Source: a virus. Taken from it: DNA of 36,742 nt. Numbering within the stretch: the first letter of the stretch is position 1; every line of letters begins with the position of its first letter. Position numbers and translations under genes: made by a program. Of this stretch, positions 2,128-31,831 are shown in pieces. The stretch spans positions 1 to 36,742 of IMG/VR virus record IMGVR_UViG_3300049259_000398; one strand, given 5' to 3'. The notes under the pieces were generated by a model. The model did no database searches. It was not told the DNA's origin and worked only from the letters and a program-made list of their open reading frames with translations.

Positions 2128-4134
2128 ATGGCTGCAACCGGCAAACGCCAGAGTATGAAACGCCCCAAAAAAGAAGGCGGTTCCAATCGCACGCCTCAAT
2201 TGCAGGCAAAGGCGAATTCCGGATCGGCCTCAAGCAACCCACCTGATCATAAGACTGCTAATTCGGCCGCATCGGCAAACAATCCCAAAGTCCTCAAGCT
2301 CTCTCTCAAAGACTTTGTTGAACAGGCATGGGGCATCCTTGAGCCTGTCAGTACTCTCGTCTGGAGTTGGCATCTTGATCTCATCTGTGAATACCTCACG
2401 CTGATCAGGGATGAGAAGTTCAAAGATGTTTGCGGCGATCTTGAAGGTATCATCTTCAATGTTCCTCCCCGGACAATGAAGAGCCTGCTGATCTCTGTCT
2501 TTTTTCCCATTTGGGTTTGGACCACCAGGCCATCCTGCCGGTTTATGTTCGTTTCATACTCTGAGAAGCTCAGCACGCACCACAGCGTTTTTCGTCGCAG
2601 CATCATTGAGTCAGAGTGGTACCAGAAACGGTGGGGCAAGATTTTCTCGCTGTCGCATGACCAGAACGTCAAAAGTCACTATGGAAATTCCGCTCGCGGC
2701 ACCATGTTCTCCACCGGCATGCAGGCCACAGCCACGGGCATGGGTGGTGACGTTTTGATCTTTGACGATCCTCTCAACCCGGAGCAGGCCATCAGCCAGG
2801 TGGAAAGGGAAGCCGTGAACCTGCGATTTGATACAACTTTTCGCAGCCGTATCAATGATCCTGCAACCGGAGTAAAGATCATTATTATGCAGCGCCTGCA
2901 TGAGCTTGATCTCACTGGACACGTCCTGGCTCGTGAAAGTAGTCGATGGAAGCATGTCAGTCTGCCGGCGGTTGCTCCAAAAGATGAAGCTTGGGAATTT
3001 CCGCGGTCTAAGAAAATTGAAAATCAAAAATCCGGCGACTTGCTCTGGCCCGCGCGTCTGCCGCAATCTTTTCTGGATAGCCAGCGCGTCGGCATGGGGA
3101 ACTGGGCGTTCAACGGACAATACCAGCAAACGCCCGCCCCGCTCGATGGCGGCATCATCAAGCGCCAATGGGTGCGTTTTTATCGCCAGCTGCCGGAGAA
3201 ATTTGAGTTCATGGTCCAATCCTGGGACTGTACCTTCAGCGGCGGCAGTGATAATGACTTCGTTGCGGGGCAAGTTTGGGGGCGCTCCGGCGGAAAATAT
3301 TTCATGCTGCCGTACCGCACGTATGACCGGCTTGATTTCGGCCCCACCATGGCCGCTATCAAGGCCTGCCATGCTAAGTTCCCCCAGGCCCATGCCGTGC
3401 TGATTGAAGATAAGGCCAACGGCCCGGCCATCATCAGTGAATTGCAGAAAGAAATTCCTGGCGTCGTACCCGTAAATCCTGAAGGCGGCAAGCTCGCTCG
3501 CGCTCAGGCCACCGCGCCTCTCTGGGAAGCAGGCAGCATTGAACTTCCTGATCCGCAGGTTTTCGGCTGTGCTTGGATTGAAGACTATCTGCACAATATA
3601 TGTACGTTTCCCAAGGCCGCGCACGATGATGACGTCGATGCTACTTCGCAGGCTCTCATCTATATGCGCAACCGCCTCGGCGGCGGCATTGTCGAGTTCT
3701 ATCGCCAGCAGGCAACCGGAGAGCTTGCGCTCGGACAAACCATCAAGCCGTTTGAACTCGGGTCAAAAAGTGGTCGTGGACCGCAGGCGCCCCCGCCTGC
3801 GGGTAAACACATTTCATCTCACAATTCTGTATTGGCCCGCAATGTACTGGCTGCCGTAGCGCAGGGCAATCAGATCCAGTGCAATTTCAAACAGTACCCA
3901 GAAGTCCGCGCTGCCCTGACCGACGCTGCGGTGCGATGGAGCGCATTTGCAAACGAACCTCATGCCTTATGGGCACGCAGTGAAATTAAGCGATTGGATT
4001 TGTTGTTCTTAAATCGCAATGAGCAGGAGGCAATTTCTAGAACGACGGCCCAAGGACACGAGGTGGCGGATCAGAAACCCGCCGTCATCCCGAGTTCCGT
4101 AGATGAGGGCGCGCTTTCTTCAGCGCCCGAATAG
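2128..4134 (+). CDS. terL: Phage terminase, large subunit
   Basis: ATPase-nuclease motor that packages phage DNA into procapsids. The ATPase domain covers about residues 60-280: a Walker A-like PPRTMKS at 113-119 and Walker B VLIFDDP at 209-215. The RNase H-like nuclease covers about 360-515: acidic motifs SWD (D367), IEDK (E427, D428) and DDDVD (500-504). The Walker A has Met where classic P-loops carry Gly, a variation I recall from related phage terminases. Residues 520-668 form an extension beyond the nuclease with no recognised domain. GAGG at 2114-2117 serves the ATG. Unusually, the portal gene is not next but 6.5 kb downstream. Confidence 0.95.
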   Translation: MAATGKRQSMKRPKKEGGSNRTPQLQAKANSGSASSNPPDHKTANSAASANNPKVLKLSLKDFVEQAWGILEPVSTLVWSWHLDLICEYLTLIRDEKFKDVCGDLEGIIFNVPPRTMKSLLISVFFPIWVWTTRPSCRFMFVSYSEKLSTHHSVFRRSIIESEWYQKRWGKIFSLSHDQNVKSHYGNSARGTMFSTGMQATATGMGGDVLIFDDPLNPEQAISQVEREAVNLRFDTTFRSRINDPATGVKIIIMQRLHELDLTGHVLARESSRWKHVSLPAVAPKDEAWEFPRSKKIENQKSGDLLWPARLPQSFLDSQRVGMGNWAFNGQYQQTPAPLDGGIIKRQWVRFYRQLPEKFEFMVQSWDCTFSGGSDNDFVAGQVWGRSGGKYFMLPYRTYDRLDFGPTMAAIKACHAKFPQAHAVLIEDKANGPAIISELQKEIPGVVPVNPEGGKLARAQATAPLWEAGSIELPDPQVFGCAWIEDYLHNICTFPKAAHDDDVDATSQALIYMRNRLGGGIVEFYRQQATGELALGQTIKPFELGSKSGRGPQAPPPAGKHISSHNSVLARNVLAAVAQGNQIQCNFKQYPEVRAALTDAAVRWSAFANEPHALWARSEIKRLDLLFLNRNEQEAISRTTAQGHEVADQKPAVIPSSVDEGALSSAPE

Positions 4135-4222: not shown

Positions 4223-4933
4223 TCACGCTCCTCGGCTGAACATCCTGACCTGTTTCGCCGGATATGCGCACAGCTCCTTCACCGGACACTCATAACATTG
4301 CGGTGATTTATCCCGGCAAATTTCTTTTCCATGTTGCCGCAATAACATATGCGCCTGGGCGATCGCCTCCGCTTTACGCGGAAGCTCCGGCTTCAATGCT
4401 TCCTGCACAGATCAGTAGGCAGCGCCATAATTTTTCTGCCACCGCCCATAGCCGACGCGTGTCAGGACTCGCAAGCCGTTCCACTCCAGCGGTAGTCCGG
4501 GCGATGCTCCGCAGAACATCAGGATCTTTTCCGCGCCCGGATCGCCGATGTTAGGAAACTGCTTCAACGCTTTCTTGGCCTGCGCATAGGGCAGCTTGAC
4601 TATCTGATCCAGGTCGTCACCAAACTGGCTCATGGTGATTCGTGCAATCTCCTGCCAGCGGAAAACCCGCACCTTGGGACGCATGCCGCCCATTGTGGCC
4701 AGCGCCAGCAGGGAATCAGGATCAGCCGTGAGGATTGCTTTTGCATTCAACCCGATCTGTTTTCTCAAGCCCTCGAACACAGTGGCACGGCGATCATCGG
4801 GCAGTAGGTAGCAGGCGTTCTCCCACATCACCAGCTCAAACGGTCTCTTCGCTGGCGGCATCGTGGGTGCGCCGTAAGCACGTTTTAGAGCAGCAATAAT
4901 TTTCTTCAGCTCAGCCATTGTGCCGAAGAGCAT
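4223..4933 (-). pseudogene. Endonuclease III-like HhH-GPD protein, interrupted by TGA
   Basis: Two segments lie in the same frame: 173 residues (4933-4412) and a tail ending at 4223, separated only by one TGA at 4414-4412. The helix-hairpin-helix lies near residues 126-138. The tail carries a C-x6-C-x2-C-x5-C loop, the 4Fe-4S signature of the endonuclease III family. The TGA falls where related proteins, as I recall them, have Arg in an AAYRSV-type motif, so CGA to TGA is the simplest explanation. Two catalytic residues are also replaced: the Lys of the hairpin by Pro (about 132) and the conserved Asp by Asn (N152). It was probably a cellular DNA-repair-like gene, now broken. A sequencing error is the main alternative. 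Confidence 0.75.
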
Positions 4934-4997: not shown

Positions 4998-5153
4998 ATG
5001 AGTGACGACGAATTCCTCGCATGTCTCGCCGCTTACCTAGGTCGGTCCACTGACGGTATCGAGCCCGAAACTCCCATTTTCACGAATGACGATGGCTCCA
5101 TTAACCGCGAAAAAACTCTCGCCCTGCCTTGCTACTGGAACTTCAAGCTTTAG
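4998..5153 (+). CDS. Small hypothetical protein (51 aa)
   Basis: An ATG at 4998 follows AAGGAG at 4988-4993, a near-ideal ribosome-binding site. The frame runs 51 codons to TAG at 5151. The protein is acidic at the start (MSDDEF) and has two Cys and several Thr and Asp; it has no membrane segment. It is divergent from the endonuclease III-like gene and converges tail-to-tail, with a 4-base overlap, on the outer-membrane protein gene. No homologue was recognised. The ribosome-binding site is the main support. Confidence 0.5.
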   Translation: MSDDEFLACLAAYLGRSTDGIEPETPIFTNDDGSINREKTLALPCYWNFKL

Positions 5154-6571
5154 AACAGGCTCGGCCTTGCAGAACTCCCCAGCAATGAGGTATTTACGTT
5201 CACGATCGTGTGTGTGCCTTCGTGTCCACCAAATGCAAACAGCAGATATACCATCGGAAAGCCCCCGGCGCGCAGGTTTATGCCGGCAGCATAGCTGTGT
5301 CTCCACGGATTGCTGCCCAGGTCCCCGCGCAGCAGAGCTACCTTGCCCTGATCGGCACGCAGCGTGACCCCCAGAGGCCAGTTGCCAATCGAATGATCGA
5401 TCCATTCTTGCAGCAGCAGCACATTCGGTGCACGGAAACGATAGTCCTGGTAACTGGGTACCGCGGGGTTGCCGTTGATGTCGGCTCCGCCCAGCGTTGG
5501 CTGAAAATAAAACGGCACCACGTTCGTGCCTGGCACAAAGGAAAGGGAAGTGGCCGCCCTCACCCCCAGCGTGCCCTGCATGCTTCGGCTCGTGGCATGT
5601 TGACAGGTTGAGTGAGCGTCCGTGGGATCAATACGGCAATCGTTCGGATCATTCGTATCTCTCGCCACATAGACATTGCGGTGATAAAACGAGATCTCCT
5701 GGCGAAGGTCAAATGTCAGCCGCTGAAATGAAAAACCTGAACCATCCGTATCGATGAACGGCTGGTACATTGCGCTGTAATCGAAGTGCAGAAGATTATT
5801 CGTAGCGGAAGGGCGCATCCTCAGGCCCATGCCCGGTTGAAAAAAGAATGGCTGGTGCGCAAGTCCCGGTGCGGTCGCTGGCGTGTACACAGCCTCAATG
5901 GAAGGCGACGGCTGGCCTGTGCTTCGCCGAATGTCCGGCAGGCGTCCGTTGAGTTCAGCAAAAAAACTCATATTGAGCTTTTGATAAACGGGCCGGATCA
6001 TGTTGCCGCCGATGATGTGCTCCGTCATCCCAAAGAAGGTCCGTCCGGCCGTTGTCGTCGTTGGGCCTTCGCCAAAGAATGTTAGCTTGTTGAGCGAAAT
6101 GGATTGGGCATAAAGGTTATAAACCGGCCGCCCGACATAAGGCTGGATATCGTCCGGGTTCACGCCGGCCGTTCCCATCTGCACGTCTGACGGTTGAATG
6201 CGGGTGTCCACAAATTTCAGGTAAAAGCCCGCGCGCCATGACGCGTTGCTCGAGCCAATCGCGTCCGCGCTCCAAGAGGTGCTCCAGTTGTCTGTGTCTT
6301 TGTGTCCCACATATGCCAGCCCGGCGCCAAAACCGTTTTGCGGCGCAATGCTTCCCACCGCAATGTGCAGTGGCTGCCCAGTAAACAGCACCTCTGCGCA
6401 GCCAACAATGTGCTTGGGACAGTTCAGCTTGAGCTTACCCAGCTCTGTCGCCGGCTCCTGCTTCTTTTCGTTCTCTACGCCGGAATTTGGGGTCGGACTG
6501 GGACTGGCAGAGGGCTGTTGTGCCCAAACGCTTCCAGCGAGCAACATGAACGCGAAAACAAATCGTCGCAC
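5150..6571 (-). CDS. Outer-membrane beta-barrel protein
   Basis: Residues 1-17 form a classic signal peptide (basic start, hydrophobic core, VWA cleavage site). A Pro/Ser-rich linker follows, then about 420 residues of alternating polar and aromatic strands ending in a terminal Phe, the pattern of Gram-negative outer-membrane barrels. It resembles BamA/TamA-type surface-antigen barrels without POTRA repeats. The GTG start abuts the stop of the Lys-rich gene with no gap, and AGGAG lies about 7 bases upstream inside that gene, so the two are co-translated. Its partner and cargo are unknown. As prophage cargo it could alter the host surface or serve as an export pore for the upstream phosphoesterase; both ideas are inference. 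Confidence 0.8.
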   Translation of the reverse strand: MRRFVFAFMLLAGSVWAQQPSASPSPTPNSGVENEKKQEPATELGKLKLNCPKHIVGCAEVLFTGQPLHIAVGSIAPQNGFGAGLAYVGHKDTDNWSTSWSADAIGSSNASWRAGFYLKFVDTRIQPSDVQMGTAGVNPDDIQPYVGRPVYNLYAQSISLNKLTFFGEGPTTTTAGRTFFGMTEHIIGGNMIRPVYQKLNMSFFAELNGRLPDIRRSTGQPSPSIEAVYTPATAPGLAHQPFFFQPGMGLRMRPSATNNLLHFDYSAMYQPFIDTDGSGFSFQRLTFDLRQEISFYHRNVYVARDTNDPNDCRIDPTDAHSTCQHATSRSMQGTLGVRAATSLSFVPGTNVVPFYFQPTLGGADINGNPAVPSYQDYRFRAPNVLLLQEWIDHSIGNWPLGVTLRADQGKVALLRGDLGSNPWRHSYAAGINLRAGGFPMVYLLFAFGGHEGTHTIVNVNTSLLGSSARPSLF

Positions 6572-6940
6572 TTACTTTCTCCTTGCTTTGCGTGACGTAC
6601 GCTTGTTTTGAGTTGATTTCTTTTTTGATTTGCTGGCAGTTTTTTTGCCGGCAGCTTTCTTTTTGGACTGCTTCTTTGTCCGAGATTTCTTTGCCGCTTT
6701 CTTGCCGTATTTATGCAGCAGCGCCGTCACTCTTTGTATGTACTCGCTCGCTTGGCGCTCCGTGTGTAGCATATTAATGTTTATGTTCGTCCGCTGTTTT
6801 TGCGGAACCATCAAATTCTCCGCATGGTGCAGGTGCAGCAACTGCGTGCGGATTAGACTCGAGATCGGCCGGTCCGGGTTATAAGCATCTTTTACATCGA
6901 ACTCAATAATGTCGACTACAGGTGCATCTTTGATCGCCAT
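6572..6940 (-). CDS. Lys-rich tailed small protein (122 aa)
   Basis: Residues 1-75 form a compact acidic-to-neutral domain. Residues 79-122 are almost entirely Lys, Arg, Ser, Thr and Ala, like a histone-type tail, suggesting polyanion binding (nucleic acid, phospholipid or LPS). It starts 3 bases after the phosphoesterase stop and ends directly at the start of the barrel gene, so it is the middle gene of a three-gene operon. No family recognised. The tail could also act as a chaperone or tether for the acidic phosphoesterase; that is speculation. Confidence 0.75.
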   Translation of the reverse strand: MAIKDAPVVDIIEFDVKDAYNPDRPISSLIRTQLLHLHHAENLMVPQKQRTNININMLHTERQASEYIQRVTALLHKYGKKAAKKSRTKKQSKKKAAGKKTASKSKKKSTQNKRTSRKARRK

Positions 6941-6943
6941 ATC

Positions 6944-8191
6944 TCAGCCTTTCATTGCCTTCGGGAAGAATACGCATTCGTTGTCCGGACGCAGTTTGTC
7001 GCCCAGCCAGTCCAGGAACGTCTCTGCCTGCTGCTCTCGCGGCGTGCCCATATCATTGCCGTTAAGGAAATGTTTGCGCACCGTCGCCGGGATTGACGCA
7101 TGCTCAAAAATCCTCTGATTCGCGGGATCTTCCGGCCCGGGAATAACCGTTCTGCGCGGAATGTAGGGTGAAACCAGCACGGCCGGCACGCGAATGCCCA
7201 GACGGTCGAAGTCGAAAGTAAGGCCGGGCACTCCGGTGGCTGCTTCGGGGGCATGGAAGCCGTCAGGTGTGCAACTCGGCGGCACCACGTGGTCATACAG
7301 TCCGCCGTGCTCGTCATAAACAATCAGTAGCGCGGTGCTCTGCCATAGCTTCGGATTTATTCGAATGCAGTCGTAAACTTTTCCGATGAAATTGTCTCCC
7401 GCCAGAACGTGATGGTCCGGATGCTGGTCCGTCGCCAGCAACTGTGTGCCGTCCAGTGCCGGATGGTCAGAGTAGTTTGGCTCCACGAAGCTGTATTGCG
7501 GCAGGTTGCCGGACTTGCAATCGGCAACAAAGTCGCTGAACACGCCAAAGAAACTCTGGTCTTTGATCAGGTTAACGATCTCCATCGTCGAACTCGGCAG
7601 ATCGTAGTAATAAAGTTTTGCGCTGTGCCCTCCCGCCGCCAGCCTCTCGTAGATCGTCGGGATCTTCGCCCGGTCAGCATCGCTGACCAGGAACATATTC
7701 ATGTCCACGTTCCCAAATGATGTCCCATAGTGAGCAAACGCGCGATTGCAAATCGTCGGCCCCGGAATTGACGAGAACCATCCGTTGAACACTGCGTACT
7801 CGGTTGCCAGCGTGGTTAAAACCGGAATTTTCTCCGGTGAAAAATACTTCATGATCGCATGCGAATCGTTGACGCTCGTGCCCTGCGTGCCATAGCTCTT
7901 CACAAAGCCTTGCATGTTGGCTGCGCGCCCTGTAGAGAACGGCACGCCACCGTAAATCTGCACGTCCACGCCTGGGAAATGATGGTCCGGATCATGGCTC
8001 AGCTGCCCGCGATAGTCCGCCGTCGCCGACACCTGCACCATATTCCCGGCGCTATCCGGATTCGTCTCATTCCCGGTCAGCCCGTTGATCTTGGGAAATT
8101 TTTTGCTCAGCCCACCCAGCATGTGGTCGAAGGAGCGGTTTTCCATCATCAGCACAACAATATGTTCCAGGTTGTCCAGTCCTTGTGACAT
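6944..8191 (-). CDS. Phospholipase C / acid phosphatase-type phosphoesterase
   Basis: Member of the phosphoesterase family that includes non-haemolytic phospholipase C and AcpA (alkaline-phosphatase superfamily). Recognisable motifs are MMENRSFDHMLG (residues 15-26, metal-binding E17/N18), GPTICNR (144-150), YDEHGG with D293, E294, H295, YDHV (D300, H301) and FEHASI (E363, H364). It would hydrolyse phosphodiester or phosphomonoester bonds, perhaps in phospholipids. At 415 aa it is a compact member and lacks the Tat or Sec signal peptide usual for secreted relatives, so it is either cytoplasmic or exported another way. First gene of the operon with the Lys-rich protein and the barrel. An AT-rich stretch upstream (8230-8245) could hold its promoter. 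Confidence 0.88.
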   Translation of the reverse strand: MSQGLDNLEHIVVLMMENRSFDHMLGGLSKKFPKINGLTGNETNPDSAGNMVQVSATADYRGQLSHDPDHHFPGVDVQIYGGVPFSTGRAANMQGFVKSYGTQGTSVNDSHAIMKYFSPEKIPVLTTLATEYAVFNGWFSSIPGPTICNRAFAHYGTSFGNVDMNMFLVSDADRAKIPTIYERLAAGGHSAKLYYYDLPSSTMEIVNLIKDQSFFGVFSDFVADCKSGNLPQYSFVEPNYSDHPALDGTQLLATDQHPDHHVLAGDNFIGKVYDCIRINPKLWQSTALLIVYDEHGGLYDHVVPPSCTPDGFHAPEAATGVPGLTFDFDRLGIRVPAVLVSPYIPRRTVIPGPEDPANQRIFEHASIPATVRKHFLNGNDMGTPREQQAETFLDWLGDKLRPDNECVFFPKAMKG

Positions 8192-8325
8192 GCAGACATC
8201 TCGCTTTCATCGAAAACGTTTCACGGCGTACCGATAATATAAATGGCAGCTTCTTTGTTTAGTGGCACAAAGGGGCGAATCGTTTCACGCATTCCATTTT
8301 CCAGCGCATGAAAGGCACGAATGGT

Positions 8326-9754: not shown

Positions 9755-10294
9755 GTGAACAAAAAAGCTTTTTACCTTGCTCTTCTCGCGCTGCTCTGCA
9801 TCACCACACTTCTCGTCTTCTCGCAAACTTCCAGCCAGTTTCCCGAGCTGGATAAAAACGGCAGGCCACTGTTGCCGCGCCCCATGCCTCACCTGGTTTA
9901 TTCCCCCACGGATCTGGCGCACAGCGGCGTTGCGATGCCTGCTTCCATCGGCGGCGCTACTCCGAGCACCAGCATCATCCGCATCGGCGACGCCACCAAG
10001 ATGACCGTCTTCGCCTCCTGCACGCAGAACTTTGACCTCGTCATGAGCATCTACATTGCGGACGATCAGGGTCAGTCGAACCCGAACTTCATCCTATATA
10101 ACAGTTACGTTATCGCCACCAACATGGCCTCTGGCGCGCAGCAGGCATACTTGGCCGCTGAACTTGCTCCCACCGTAACCAGTGGCACACTCGGCGCACC
10201 AGTACGTCTGCCGCAACTCGCGGTTTCTTTCTTCGAGAAAAATGACGTTGCCACCGCCGGCACCTGCACTGACCGCGTCATCATCGGCTACTAA
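9755..10294 (+). CDS. Secreted hypothetical protein (179 aa)
   Basis: The GTG start is served by AGGAG at 9744-9748. Residues 1-23 form a signal peptide (KK, then a Leu/Ala-rich core, ending SQT). The mature domain is beta-rich with two central-to-late cysteines (in ASCTQNF and GTCTDRV) that could form a disulphide in the periplasm, and a C-terminal IIGY. No family recognised. It is enclosed by two direct copies of a 34-bp hairpin repeat, so it may have arrived as a unit. As secreted prophage cargo it is a candidate lysogenic-conversion protein. Confidence 0.65.
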   Translation: MNKKAFYLALLALLCITTLLVFSQTSSQFPELDKNGRPLLPRPMPHLVYSPTDLAHSGVAMPASIGGATPSTSIIRIGDATKMTVFASCTQNFDLVMSIYIADDQGQSNPNFILYNSYVIATNMASGAQQAYLAAELAPTVTSGTLGAPVRLPQLAVSFFEKNDVATAGTCTDRVIIGY

Positions 10295-10675: not shown

Positions 10676-12178
10676 ATGGCTGAAACACTCAATGGCGGAA
10701 AACTTACTGCGCTCGAGCCCGGCTTTGTGGAGCGCGTCGGGCGCAAGCTGCGCAACACGCTCGACGTCTGGTTTGGTCCTGACCTGCCCATGTCGCCCAG
10801 CGCGCCCATAGGCACTCCACCGCGGACGCTCGATTACCCCGTGGGTTACAACATCAACATTCAGCCGCGCAACATGGAGCCCATCTCTTTTGAACAGATG
10901 CGCTCGCTGGCCGATTCCTTTGATCTCGTGCGTCTCTGCATTGAGACGCGCAAAGACCAGGTCAGCCGCATGCCCTGGGCATTTCGCTTGAAGACGCCGC
11001 CGGGCGCGCCAAAGCGCGCGGCCAACACCAGCAACAGCGCCATCAGCGGTGATGACGACGAAGAGAAAGATCCTCGGCTCACGCAGCTGACAAATTTTTT
11101 CTCTTATCCCGATCGCGAGCATACCTGGCAGCAGTGGGTTCGCCTGCTGCTGGAAGACCTGCTCGTCCTCGATGCTCCGGTACTGGTTCCCATCGTTTCT
11201 CAGGAAGGTGAGTTGTGGTCTACTGGCAAAGCGCTTTATGCGTTGGAAGTGATTGATGGTTCCACCATTGCGCGCAAAATTGACATTATGGGACGCACGC
11301 CTGCATCTCCGGCAATCGCGTACCAGCAGATCCTCAAAGGCTTGCCCGCGGTCGATTTCACCGCTGATCAGCTCATCTATCGTCCGCGCAATGTGCGAGC
11401 GCACAAATTTTTCGGCTTCTCGCCGGTCGAGCAGATTATTCTCACCATCAACATCGGCCTGCGCCGCCAGATTCATCTGTTGAATTATTACACTGAAGGC
11501 AACGTGCCGGAAGCCGTGGCCCAGGTGCCTAAGGAATGGTCGGCCGACCAGATCAGCGAATTTCAGGAGTGGTTTGATAGCTCGCTGGCTGGAAACTCGG
11601 CTCGCCGTCGTCGCATCACCTTCGTTCCTGAGTGCGGCAATCTCCAGTTCACGCGCGATCCCATGCTCAAGGACGCGCTGGACGAATGGATCACCCGCAT
11701 CGTCTGTTATGCCTTTGGTCTCTCACCACAGCAGTTTGTCAGCGTAATGAACCGCGCCACGGCAGAAACCAGCGTCGAGCAGGCCGCCGCGGAAGGCCTT
11801 GTTCCGATCCTCGGCTACCTCGCTGACACTATCAACTTCATCGTCACGCGTCACTTTGATTTCAACGATATCGAATTTGTCTGGGAGCAGGACCGCACCT
11901 CGAACCCGCTGGAACAGGCGAAGATCGATGACATTTACGTCCGCGCCGGAGTGCTCTCCATCGACGAAGTACGCGAAAGCCTGGGCAAGCATCCTGTCGG
12001 TATGGCCAATGCTGTGATTACCACTCGCGGCGCTTTCCCGCTCCAGATCAAGGGCGTACGTCGAGGCGCTGGATCGCCAGAAAAAGTTCAATCGAACGGT
12101 GAATCTCAACCTATCGCTGGATCTCAGCCTGTGCCCGACTCTCAACCGCTGTCATCTGAGCGGCACCGAGCGCCGTAA
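10676..12178 (+). CDS. Phage portal protein
   Basis: Forms the dodecameric ring at the unique capsid vertex through which DNA enters and leaves. The 500-residue length and body fit HK97/Mu-type portals: an N-terminal wing (SFDLVRLCIETRKDQV, near 83-98), a stem/crown segment with a RARxFGFSPVEQI-like motif near residues 240-255, and a long helix after LNYYTEGN. The C-terminal 35 residues are Ser/Pro/Gln-rich and probably disordered. It starts 2 bases after the small upstream gene and heads the contiguous structural operon that continues with protease and capsid. Confidence 0.93.
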   Translation: MAETLNGGKLTALEPGFVERVGRKLRNTLDVWFGPDLPMSPSAPIGTPPRTLDYPVGYNINIQPRNMEPISFEQMRSLADSFDLVRLCIETRKDQVSRMPWAFRLKTPPGAPKRAANTSNSAISGDDDEEKDPRLTQLTNFFSYPDREHTWQQWVRLLLEDLLVLDAPVLVPIVSQEGELWSTGKALYALEVIDGSTIARKIDIMGRTPASPAIAYQQILKGLPAVDFTADQLIYRPRNVRAHKFFGFSPVEQIILTINIGLRRQIHLLNYYTEGNVPEAVAQVPKEWSADQISEFQEWFDSSLAGNSARRRRITFVPECGNLQFTRDPMLKDALDEWITRIVCYAFGLSPQQFVSVMNRATAETSVEQAAAEGLVPILGYLADTINFIVTRHFDFNDIEFVWEQDRTSNPLEQAKIDDIYVRAGVLSIDEVRESLGKHPVGMANAVITTRGAFPLQIKGVRRGAGSPEKVQSNGESQPIAGSQPVPDSQPLSSERHRAP

Positions 12179-28854: not shown

Positions 28855-29610
28855 CTAGAAACCGTTCGCAAGTACGGCGTGACAATCCAATGTCATTAAA
28901 TCCTGCTCAGGCATTGCTCTGAATGGGGAGGACATTTTGTTTTGCGCTGTGGGTATAGATGGCCAACAATTACGGTGTCTGACGGACACCACGAAGTGTT
29001 GTTCGAGCAACGCTTGCATCTTTGCCCAGGGAATCCGGTTTGTATAAAAACCGGATTTAGCCATGAAGTCACTTTCCCATATTCGTTCCGAGAATCGAAG
29101 ATTATTCAACGCATACTGAAGATGGTCTCGGAAATCGATTTGATGAGAGCCGATCCCGTGCGGTTTAAGAACGCGCTTCATCTCCATCACGAGGGGGAGA
29201 AATTCTTTCAACCGAATGTGCTCAAGCACCGCATTCGAAAAAAGAAAATCCACAGAAGCATCAGGAACTTCACGAAATGACTTAAGCCCTTCCGTCAGGT
29301 AAACGGTGTTAGGGAAGGGCTCAACGTCAGCAATGGGTTCTGAATCGATCAGCCATGTTTTCGTGGCGCGGAGTTCGTTAGCATACTTACCTGTCAACAG
29401 GCCATTGCCCGGACCAATTTCAAGGACCGTTTTGTTGCTGAGGTCAGAAAACCCAGTTGCACCAAAATGCTTATCAAAAACCGACCTAGCATACTGGTCG
29501 CTATCCATTCCACCGGCGCGGAACAAATGAAGCTTTTGCCAAGCCTTACCACCTACTGGCAGCCGGGATAGCACAAGCTTAGCGGGAATTTTTATATACC
29601 ACGGAATCAT
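28855..29610 (-). CDS. Class I SAM-dependent methyltransferase 1
   Basis: Transfers a methyl group from S-adenosylmethionine to an unknown acceptor. The product is 251 aa. SAM-binding motif I is TVLEIGPGNG (residues 61-70), the acidic motif II is LIDSEP (87-92), and SNAVLEHI (125-132) is the post-motif signature of the Methyltransf_11/23 group. GGAGAT lies upstream of the ATG. Last gene of the minus-strand cassette and convergent with the fibre gene (22-base gap). Relatives are frequent in O-antigen and exopolysaccharide clusters, so a glycan acceptor is inferred. Confidence 0.85.
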   Translation of the reverse strand: MIPWYIKIPAKLVLSRLPVGGKAWQKLHLFRAGGMDSDQYARSVFDKHFGATGFSDLSNKTVLEIGPGNGLLTGKYANELRATKTWLIDSEPIADVEPFPNTVYLTEGLKSFREVPDASVDFLFSNAVLEHIRLKEFLPLVMEMKRVLKPHGIGSHQIDFRDHLQYALNNLRFSERIWESDFMAKSGFYTNRIPWAKMQALLEQHFVVSVRHRNCWPSIPTAQNKMSSPFRAMPEQDLMTLDCHAVLANGF

Positions 29611-29735
29611 ATTTGTTGAGATCTCCCGAAGGATGGCGCCAACTCCTAAATCATGGGCGTGCGAAAAAATAGAACATTAAGCGTTGGGTTGATTGTGAAA
29701 CTATTTTACACCGATCACGTGATTTGCTCGCCGAT

Positions 29736-30566
29736 CTAGCTGCTCTTGAATCCGACAGCAACCCAATATGGTGTGCCGTCGCGGAAAGAGATGTTGAATA
29801 GTCCGGCACCTTTCATCATTGCTTCGATTTCGGGGCGGGCAAAGCGCTTTTCGAGTTTGGTGCCAAACCTGTCCAGAGCGTCATTTCGCAGAATGTAAAA
29901 GGACTTGTCGCGATAATAGCTGAGAGGCACAGCGGATACATTAATGCCAAGCTTCTCCAGCAGCCCGGCAAGCCTCGCCGCTGGCCAGTAAATCAGCGCG
30001 GCGATGATTTCACAGATAAAGGACTTCAGGCGAAACGGAAGGGCACTGATGAAGATGCGCGGAACATTGCTTAACCTCCAGATTAGACGGAACCACGCCG
30101 GTCGATTCTCCAGGCGGTAATAAAGATAGAGCAAGAATGGCGCGCCAACTTTGAGTTTGTGAACGATGTGGCGCAAGGATTGCGCTGTGTTGGTAACGTG
30201 ATGGAGAACGCCAAGGCAATAACCAAAATCCAATGAAGCATCAGGGATTGAGATCGAGTCAGCAGGTTCCATCAGGAAAGAGCAGTTATGATATGCGGAC
30301 AGTTTCTGTTCAGCCACTGCCAGCGCTTTCTCACTGGGGTCAATGCAGTAAAGATGTCCAACCCGGGGAGCGACAAAAAAAGCAAATCGGCCTGATCCGC
30401 AGCCCACGTCACAGCCAGTCGCATTCGGTGGAAGAGCTGACCAGGGAAAGATGGAGAAGTACTCGCTGAACATGAGTCGCTGATCGTCAGTGATCTCATT
30501 TTTGAACTTGTCCCATTCATTGCCGAAAGAGGAAACAACGCTATTTTGTAGACGATCTTCTTTCAT
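29736..30566 (-). CDS. Class I SAM-dependent methyltransferase 2
   Basis: The product is 276 aa. Motif I is CDVGCGSGR (residues 52-60), acidic YCIDPS (73-78), and GVLHHV (119-124). The C-terminal half is unusual: PAWFRLIWRLS, then a hydrophobic LKSFICEIIAALIYWPAARL segment and PLSYYRDKSFYILRNDALDR, a pattern I recall from methyltransferases in O-antigen clusters. The hydrophobic part suggests association with the membrane and a lipid-linked glycan. Its start overlaps the upstream small membrane-protein gene by 26 bases. Confidence 0.85.
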   Translation of the reverse strand: MKEDRLQNSVVSSFGNEWDKFKNEITDDQRLMFSEYFSIFPWSALPPNATGCDVGCGSGRFAFFVAPRVGHLYCIDPSEKALAVAEQKLSAYHNCSFLMEPADSISIPDASLDFGYCLGVLHHVTNTAQSLRHIVHKLKVGAPFLLYLYYRLENRPAWFRLIWRLSNVPRIFISALPFRLKSFICEIIAALIYWPAARLAGLLEKLGINVSAVPLSYYRDKSFYILRNDALDRFGTKLEKRFARPEIEAMMKGAGLFNISFRDGTPYWVAVGFKSS

Positions 30567-30744
30567 TGACTCCGGCCGTAAAGGCGTACAGGATAGCGCA
30601 GGTTGCGAGAAAGTACCAACCCACTAGAAAAGCCGAATCGTATAACCCGCGAAGTAGCCGATGGCGGCTGTCTTCTGGCGCGTTACCACCGATTTTGTCA
30701 TATAGGTATGCAATGACTTTCATGCTTTTATTCAGAGTACACAT
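30541..30744 (-). CDS. Small inner-membrane protein (67 aa)
   Basis: Encodes one clear membrane helix (SAFLVGWYFLATCAILYAF, residues about 37-55) with a charged N-terminal half and basic tail. The ATG at 30723 (MKVIAYLYD) is an alternative start. It lies between methyltransferases 3 and 2 and overlaps the latter by 26 bases, so it belongs to their operon. Function unknown; possibly an accessory subunit tying the enzymes to the membrane. Confidence 0.5.
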   Translation of the reverse strand: MCTLNKSMKVIAYLYDKIGGNAPEDSRHRLLRGLYDSAFLVGWYFLATCAILYAFTAGVNERRSSTK

Positions 30745-30760
30745 TCTACTTTAAGGGACG

Positions 30761-31591
30761 CTACAAATGGAAGATGCACGGGCGGGTAGTCCGCTCAAAA
30801 ACATATTCATTCATCCGGATGATCCGGCCAAACGGATGCAGGGCTTTCAAGGCAAAGCCTCGTTTCTGATAGAAGCAAATAACGTCCGTGGGCTTGGCAA
30901 ATTCAAAAGGATAGCCGCCGGCCCAATCCACGATGTCGTGCCAGGCCGACATGCCGCGTTTTACTTTCCAGTTCTTCCAATCCGAGATGACGCGATGCGG
31001 GGACAGTAATAATTTTGGGAGCCAAAGAGTTATTAATGACGCAAGCGTGACGGCGGGACGAGACCACGGGTGAGCGACATAAGATCGCTTCAGGAACTGC
31101 CAGAGCCGGCTGACAGCGCCCTGATCAGCATAGAGGCAGATTATAAGATGCTCTTTCGCTGGAATGGTGATGAGATCCAGGCTCTTCCACATTGCACCGG
31201 TATGGTGGAGCACGCCCCAGGAATAAACAACCTCAAACTGTCCGAGCGAGCGCAGATATTGCTCGTCCAGGGCTGATCCCGCTTCAATCTGCCAGTTGGA
31301 CATTGGTGCAAAGCGCCGTTTCATCTCGGCGGTACAGGCCACGCTTTTCGGATCGTAATCAAAGGACACGACGCGGGCCGCGCCGAGGTGCACGGCGGCA
31401 AGGGAATGAATGCCGCTGCCGGACCCGGCATCAAGGAAAGATTTTCCGCTGATGTCACCCGCCATTTCAGCAAGACGGGCACTCGCCTGCGCTATACGGT
31501 CTTCATCGACCAGCGAAAGAAAATTGGTCCAGTTCTCGCCGAATTCAAAGCGGGCCGTTGCCTGTTGTTCGGGGCCGGTCATGCGAAACAT
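30761..31591 (-). CDS. Class I SAM-dependent methyltransferase 3
   Basis: I chose the ATG at 31591 (276 aa). A longer frame from 31678 would overlap the divergent plus-strand gene. Motif I is FLDAGSGSGIHS (residues 52-63), acidic SFDYDP (76-81), and SWGVLHHTG (124-132). The C-terminal WHDIVDWAGGYPFEFAKP and FYQKRGFALKAL stretch is characteristic of methyltransferases in polysaccharide clusters. It is the first gene of the minus-strand cassette, and its promoter should lie in the 75-base divergent gap. Confidence 0.86.
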   Translation of the reverse strand: MFRMTGPEQQATARFEFGENWTNFLSLVDEDRIAQASARLAEMAGDISGKSFLDAGSGSGIHSLAAVHLGAARVVSFDYDPKSVACTAEMKRRFAPMSNWQIEAGSALDEQYLRSLGQFEVVYSWGVLHHTGAMWKSLDLITIPAKEHLIICLYADQGAVSRLWQFLKRSYVAHPWSRPAVTLASLITLWLPKLLLSPHRVISDWKNWKVKRGMSAWHDIVDWAGGYPFEFAKPTDVICFYQKRGFALKALHPFGRIIRMNEYVFERTTRPCIFHL

Positions 31592-31666
31592 CCTATCACC
31601 GCCCTTGTTTGCTAAAGGGTGACAGCTTTTACCTGCGTGCGTCATTTTTTTCAGGAGAGAAACCCG

Positions 31667-31831
31667 ATGCAAATTCATTTTTCAGATTTTGTTACCGTAG
31701 CGAACCTGCTGGTGCTGCTGGGGATTTATCGCAAGATGTCGATCATCGTGTACCAGCACAAGCTGATGTGGACGGACTTTGCCGAGCGTAAGGGCATCAG
31801 CGCGAATGGAAAGCACGCAGCCAGTGTTTAG
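31667..31831 (+). CDS. Small membrane protein, lysis-region (54 aa)
   Basis: The ATG at 31667 follows AGGAG at 31653-31657. One membrane helix spans about residues 8-23 (FVTVANLLVLLGIY), followed by a charged amphipathic part with RKMSIIVYQHKLMW. Small single-helix proteins near phage endolysins are often holin or antiholin accessories, but no signature proves it. It is divergent from the methyltransferase cassette and begins the plus-strand lysis segment. Confidence 0.6.
   Translation: MQIHFSDFVTVANLLVLLGIYRKMSIIVYQHKLMWTDFAERKGISANGKHAASV

Follow-up and report, generated by a model that had tools for sequence, protein, structure and literature searches.

In this study, we propose that a three-gene operon in a virus contig is optional temperate-phage cargo, composed of a two-chain phospholipase C (PLC) of the NPC4 type and an outer-membrane barrel with an Omp85 fold, which alters the host envelope and thus acts in lysogenic conversion; we hold this explanation with slightly more confidence than doubt. 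The window (the whole stretch of DNA that was analysed) is the full 36.7-kb virus record, which is classed as linear and whose phage genes include an integrase and, at 32.5 kb, the phage's own endolysin (GH108). The original prediction described a three-gene operon in which 3 and 0 bases separate the genes, lying as reverse-strand cargo within a virion gene cluster. Both parts of this description hold. The three open reading frames are present on the minus strand exactly at the predicted coordinates, with 3 bases between the PLC gene and the middle gene and none between the middle gene and the barrel gene. The trio is placed between terL and the portal gene (10676-12178), both on the plus strand, in the direction opposite to that of the late genes. 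The features of the region are as follows.

2128-4134, plus strand: terminase large subunit (terL), left border of the cargo site (phrog_38, E 2.6e-98)
4223-4933, minus strand: cargo gene resembling endonuclease III, flanking the operon on its other side, with one in-frame TGA in the window
5150-6571, minus strand: predicted Omp85-type outer-membrane barrel, GTG start, no POTRA (AlphaFold2, Foldseek, profile overlap with PF01103, loop-6 alignment)
6572-6940, minus strand: putative detached PLC C-terminal domain with a 45-residue Lys-rich tail (HHalign, fused relatives, NPC4 profile alignment)
6944-8191, minus strand: predicted PLC catalytic domain, PF04185, NPC4-type, 415 aa (Pfam, NPC4 alignment, frame closed upstream)
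8192-8325, minus strand: operon upstream region, with a leader shared among phage relatives
8326-8730, minus strand: HTH-like conserved phage gene bordering the cargo site, also found in phages without the operon

Just 5' of the PLC ATG, the leader 'GAAAGCGAGATG.CTGC' is common to the window and the related contig L082, and nearly so to L084; it is also present in L085, despite the divergent PLC allele of that contig. A promoter and terminator scan of the operon gave nothing above chance, a promoter-like match at 8261-8234 being at chance level. The endonuclease III-like gene has its in-frame TGA at 4412-4414 in the window and is intact in L083, L084 and L086, so the window copy could be a recent pseudogene or contain a sequencing error. 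Two other parts of the window were noted. Three SAM-dependent methyltransferase genes in a row (28855-31678, minus strand) form a second cargo block after the tail genes, and just upstream of the portal gene (9755-10294, plus strand) nearly all related phages encode a protein without family assignment whose N-terminus resembles a signal peptide.

The two enzyme genes

Judged by its sequence, gene 1 is the catalytic domain of an NPC4-type PLC. Its 415-aa product matches PF04185 over the full length (E 4e-68) and Arabidopsis NPC4 with an E-value of 1e-59. The catalytic residues of NPC4 are E23, N24, D76, H79, T158, H264, D299 and E300 (PMC9837106), and in the alignment all eight are conserved in the window PLC, as E17, N18, D67, H70, T146, H257, D293 and E294. 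An NPC-type PLC most likely cleaves phospholipid in this system. Against TIGR03396, the Pseudomonas-type phosphocholine-specific PLC, the window PLC scored 108.6 bits, where the curated cut-off is 580 bits, and it also fell far below the cut-off of TIGR03397.

The enzyme had been predicted to have no signal peptide, and the reading frame bears this out. A TGA lies six codons 5' of the ATG with no start codon in between, which rules out a hidden upstream signal peptide for the window PLC, and the relatives start at the same position. A corrected upstream start that would give a signal peptide was rejected on the ground of the closed frame. No signal peptide was found in the acidobacterial or phage copies of the PLC. 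A twin-arginine-type N-terminus was found in only 2 of the 59 loci with a barrel, both from Rokubacteria (GRREWLSTVARG; MVKTTGRREWLSTVARG...). These homologues, L049 (7890-8040) and L051, have the barrel downstream and differ in their N-terminus from the acidobacterial and phage copies. A third match to the twin-arginine pattern, in L086, was taken as chance because no start codon lies upstream of it.

The C-terminal domain is missing from the 415-aa PLC chain and is encoded by the adjacent gene. The middle protein (122 aa, pI 10.8) has a two-helix domain at residues ~17-77 and carries 23 K/R among its last 45 residues. The C-terminal extensions of long-form PLCs are homologous to it (HHalign probability 98.65%, E 5e-16, in a single comparison), and the fusion of the PLC with the middle domain is visible even by tblastn in three loci (L047, L048 and L060). 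The long-PLC profile aligns with residues 14-481 of Arabidopsis NPC4 (E 3e-118), a span that takes in the C-terminal domain. When the fused L060 protein was modelled with AlphaFold (pLDDT 80.5, pTM 0.86), the model matched the NPC4 structure 8haw at TM 0.79/0.78. In NPC4, the first helix of the C-terminal domain docks on the catalytic domain (PMC9837106). The key interface residues of NPC4 are only partly kept in the middle protein, which has Q33 and H36 where NPC4 has L435 and M438 in the HHalign/profile register, a point against the explanation that we favour. A PDB sequence search with the middle-protein profile gave nothing significant. From the homology of the extensions, the profile spanning NPC4, the match of the fused model and the eight catalytic residues, we conclude that genes 1 and 2 encode what is, at the level of sequence, a split NPC-type phospholipase.

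The middle protein had been described as a histone-tail-like basic protein. This description does not fit its conserved part, which is the PLC C-terminal domain, and a histone-like or DNA-binding protein was rejected for this reason and because the tail is variable. The Lys-rich tail contains ~50% K+R in the phage clade and in its sister loci L002, L004 and L005, and is retained in the fused L047 and L048 enzymes; elsewhere it is short or absent in many copies, and it is therefore accessory. If the tail is a membrane tether, as it perhaps is, it would probably hold the enzyme to anionic membrane surfaces.

NPC4 (PDB 8hav/8haw) shares with the present system the catalytic domain, the catalytic residues and the type of C-terminal domain, and its activity is almost eliminated without that domain (PMC9837106). 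Here, in contrast, the C-terminal domain is a separate Lys-tailed protein whose gene is followed by that of an outer-membrane barrel. We infer that the C-terminal domain which NPC4 needs for activity comes in trans from gene 2, with gene 1 providing the catalytic domain, so that the product of gene 2 would activate that of gene 1.

The outer-membrane barrel

The claim that the third gene encodes an exported barrel is supported by a hydrophobic, signal-like N-terminal segment following a GTG start and by the predicted fold. In an AlphaFold2 model of moderate confidence (pLDDT 78.6), ~16 strands follow the signal peptide and a short linker; only ~45 residues separate the signal from the barrel, and the model contains no POTRA domain. 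All 50 matches listed by Foldseek against the PDB were Omp85-superfamily proteins or complexes with them (TamA, BamA, Sam50, CdiB and TOC), with TM 0.71 by target for the TamA barrel 8us4. The barrel profile had no significant match among PDB sequences, and a direct Pfam scan of 54 barrels gave no match. Weak matches of the barrel profile (A1) at E<1e-3 in acidobacterial genomes coincide with places where PF01103 also exceeds its cut-off, among them G034:C29, G241:C98 and G251:C40; this overlap is an indirect link. Some frames matched by both profiles, of 426-461 aa, have the size expected without a POTRA. Gene 3 is thus predicted by modelling to be a POTRA-less, 16-stranded outer-membrane barrel of the Omp85 type.

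The loop-6 region reads LGG...TLRG[FY].DYRFR in the outgroup barrels, with LRGF or LRGY retained in L047, L048, L050, L053, L057 and L087, and LGG...LxSYxDYRFR in the window clade. The Omp85 loop-6 pattern [VIL]RG[FY] does not occur in the window clade, in which RGF/Y is replaced by xSY. The alignment thus indicates that this clade lost the RG of the motif and kept its surroundings. Omp85 barrels without an N-terminal domain and without POTRA have been described as noNterm Omp85 proteins (PMC4104836). The present barrel is like them in lacking an N-terminal domain but differs in three respects: the window clade has no RG in loop-6 RGF/Y, the barrel is tied to a phospholipase operon, and the Pfam Omp85 model misses it directly.

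The PLC and the middle protein have no export signal in the phage and acidobacterial copies, whereas the barrel has one. Since the barrel is predicted to lie in the outer membrane, this topology weighs against the explanation that we favour, which does not account for physical contact between the enzyme and the barrel. A rival explanation is that the barrel carries both PLC subunits to the surface of the cell, or holds them at the outer membrane on its periplasmic side, the enzyme reaching the periplasm by an unrecognised route. This would be a trans version of PlpD, a type 5d protein in which a patatin domain, POTRA and an Omp85 barrel form one polypeptide and whose loss changes envelope phospholipids (PMC11116518). 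PlpD shows that a phospholipase can be coupled to an Omp85-type barrel, which makes it the nearest working analogue. The enzyme-barrel gene linkage is constant and the barrel has the Omp85 fold, which agree with such delivery, and the twin-arginine-type N-terminus of the barrel-linked Rokubacteria homologues suggests that at least some such enzymes are exported. However, no signal peptide was seen in acidobacterial or phage copies of the enzyme, the barrel lacks a POTRA that could take up a substrate, and its loop-6 motif is without the RG; we therefore regard this delivery as rather unlikely. The same doubt applies to the idea of a new two-partner system used by Acidobacteria, in which an Omp85 derivative that lacks POTRA and has a changed loop-6 motif delivers or holds a split, signal-less PLC with a separate activator subunit, and which phages borrowed for rebuilding the envelope. 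If this were true, the host envelope would be rebuilt, for instance to exclude other phages.

The enzyme signal peptide and the barrel POTRA that characterise type 5d and two-partner systems are both lacking here, and in comparison with PlpD there are three proteins instead of one and the enzyme belongs to PF04185. Because it departs from PlpD in the family of its enzyme, in how the chains are built and in lacking both the enzyme signal and the POTRA, the present system cannot be filed as type 5d. In the lysogenic-conversion explanation that we favour, the POTRA-less barrel would work in the same envelope-lipid process as the enzyme; we infer both the site of enzyme action and the role of the barrel.

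Distribution in bacteria and phages

In a PLC scan of 84,980 species genomes, the best 80 loci were taken and typed by tblastn of the three proteins, by the middle-protein profile and by frame lengths, a PLC of <440 aa being counted as short. Wherever a short PLC has a barrel downstream (44/44 loci, phages included), the middle domain is found between the two, and these loci are nearly all from Acidobacteriota. In 15 further loci with a barrel, the PLC is long (460-531 aa) and a separate middle gene is absent. The trio order is far beyond chance and recurs in dozens of loci. The view that the three genes belong together is therefore upheld by their neighbourhoods: the order is kept in every locus with a short PLC and a barrel, the middle gene is never missing from them, and rare co-occurrence of the homologues was not seen. 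One locus, L052, has the N-terminus of the split clade on a long-form PLC and flanks like those of L003/L005, and is either chimeric or mis-assembled.

A close barrel homologue (E<1e-130) is present in 8 of 297 genomes that sample the phylum evenly, so the operon is widespread but patchy. No genes beyond the trio are generally conserved across the loci, and none of the window's phage genes were found near the chromosomal copies. The premise of a prophage-encoded system thus needs revision, since the trio belongs mainly to bacteria, from which phages acquired it. The distribution bears on another explanation, in which the operon is nutrient cargo: the enzyme frees phosphorylated head groups or diacylglycerol and the barrel moves the product, aiding a phosphate-limited soil host. 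The enzyme family does cleave the phosphorylated head group (NPC4, PMC9837106), and close homologues are widely, if patchily, distributed among soil Acidobacteria. The lack of conserved genes beyond the trio means that there are no nutrient-uptake neighbours, and the Omp85 fold differs from the fold of nutrient porins; we consider this explanation unlikely.

Besides the window, seven viral contigs encode the PLC. Six of them are relatives of the window phage with the PLC at the same place, and the full trio is present wherever the contig is long enough; the seventh, L087, has a distant form with a long PLC. Further phage relatives were found via the capsid protein. In four (L097, L104, L106 and L108), terL is followed by the HTH gene, without the operon and without an intact endonuclease gene. 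At the same site, L098 and L102 have the endonuclease-III gene only and L109 has endonuclease III with HipBA, a HipA/HipB-like toxin-antitoxin pair (L109:1369-2969, minus strand). Because relatives show it empty or with other cargo, the terL-HTH interval is a cargo site. The operon is an optional, self-contained unit of foreign origin between conserved phage genes, as expected of a moron. The same recurrence leads us to reject mis-assembly or imprecise excision, by which host DNA would have become attached to a phage contig: the mainly bacterial nature of the set agrees with this, but the six related contigs carry the operon at the terL-HTH site with sequence divergence of their own, and we give this explanation practically no credence.

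The related phage copies form one clade (support 97/94 for the PLC and 100/97 for the barrel) nested among acidobacterial sequences, beside the loci L002-L005, suggesting one capture. A diverged operon allele occupies the same site in L085/L114 and L086/L119. The PLCs of L085 and L086 are 61% identical to the window PLC while the structural genes are mostly 73-91% identical, and in L086 the endonuclease gene is on the opposite side of the operon; alleles were thus probably exchanged. The phage copies are under purifying selection, with dN/dS at 0.05-0.17 in each gene of the trio, comparable to that of the capsid gene, although dS is near saturation. The kinship of the operon suggests that this group of soil phages probably infects Acidobacteria; a search of the acidobacterial phylum for the phage gave only a 42%-identical capsid in one genome.

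None of the three genes has a PHROG match, and the barrel was not found in annotated phages or plasmids. Phospholipase matches in four 'Acinetobacter phage' records were weak (23-30% identity) and were rejected as known phage cargo. PADLOC gave no convincing defence-system match, a weak match of the middle protein being mainly on its low-complexity tail.

Since the phage genome encodes a signal-less phospholipase and an outer-membrane protein, the operon might instead aid lysis, the PLC, late in infection, attacking the inner membrane on its cytoplasmic side and the barrel disturbing the outer membrane. The operon is, however, on the strand opposite to the late genes and optional within the phage group, the gene set is mainly bacterial with this phage's genes absent around it, and the phage has its own endolysin. 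A role in lysis is therefore quite improbable. As optional cargo of a temperate phage group, the set would alter the phospholipids or the outer membrane of the host in the prophage state, a lysogenic-conversion trait from which the phage may benefit.

Novelty and meaning

PlcH, PlcN and Francisella AcpA, also of PF04185, are exported single-chain enzymes. Their catalytic domain has the same fold, and their similarity to the window PLC is much lower than that of NPC4. The original prediction knew of no described system with this composition, and our literature search for the three-gene combination likewise found no description, in a coverage without most subscription journals, which is hence not proof. 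The combination of a split PLC with an Omp85-type barrel appears to be previously undescribed.

In conclusion, this study identifies a three-gene operon, two genes of which had no family assignment, and offers a mechanism for it that can be tested. The operon occurs throughout Acidobacteriota, a phylum that is dominant in soil and has been little studied, and is also carried by phages. Because the NPC form is naturally split here, mixing the two proteins would be a simple test of whether the C-terminal domain is an activator, as has so far been shown for plants. With its constant enzyme partner, the POTRA-less Omp85 derivative would also be useful for asking what the role of such barrels is.
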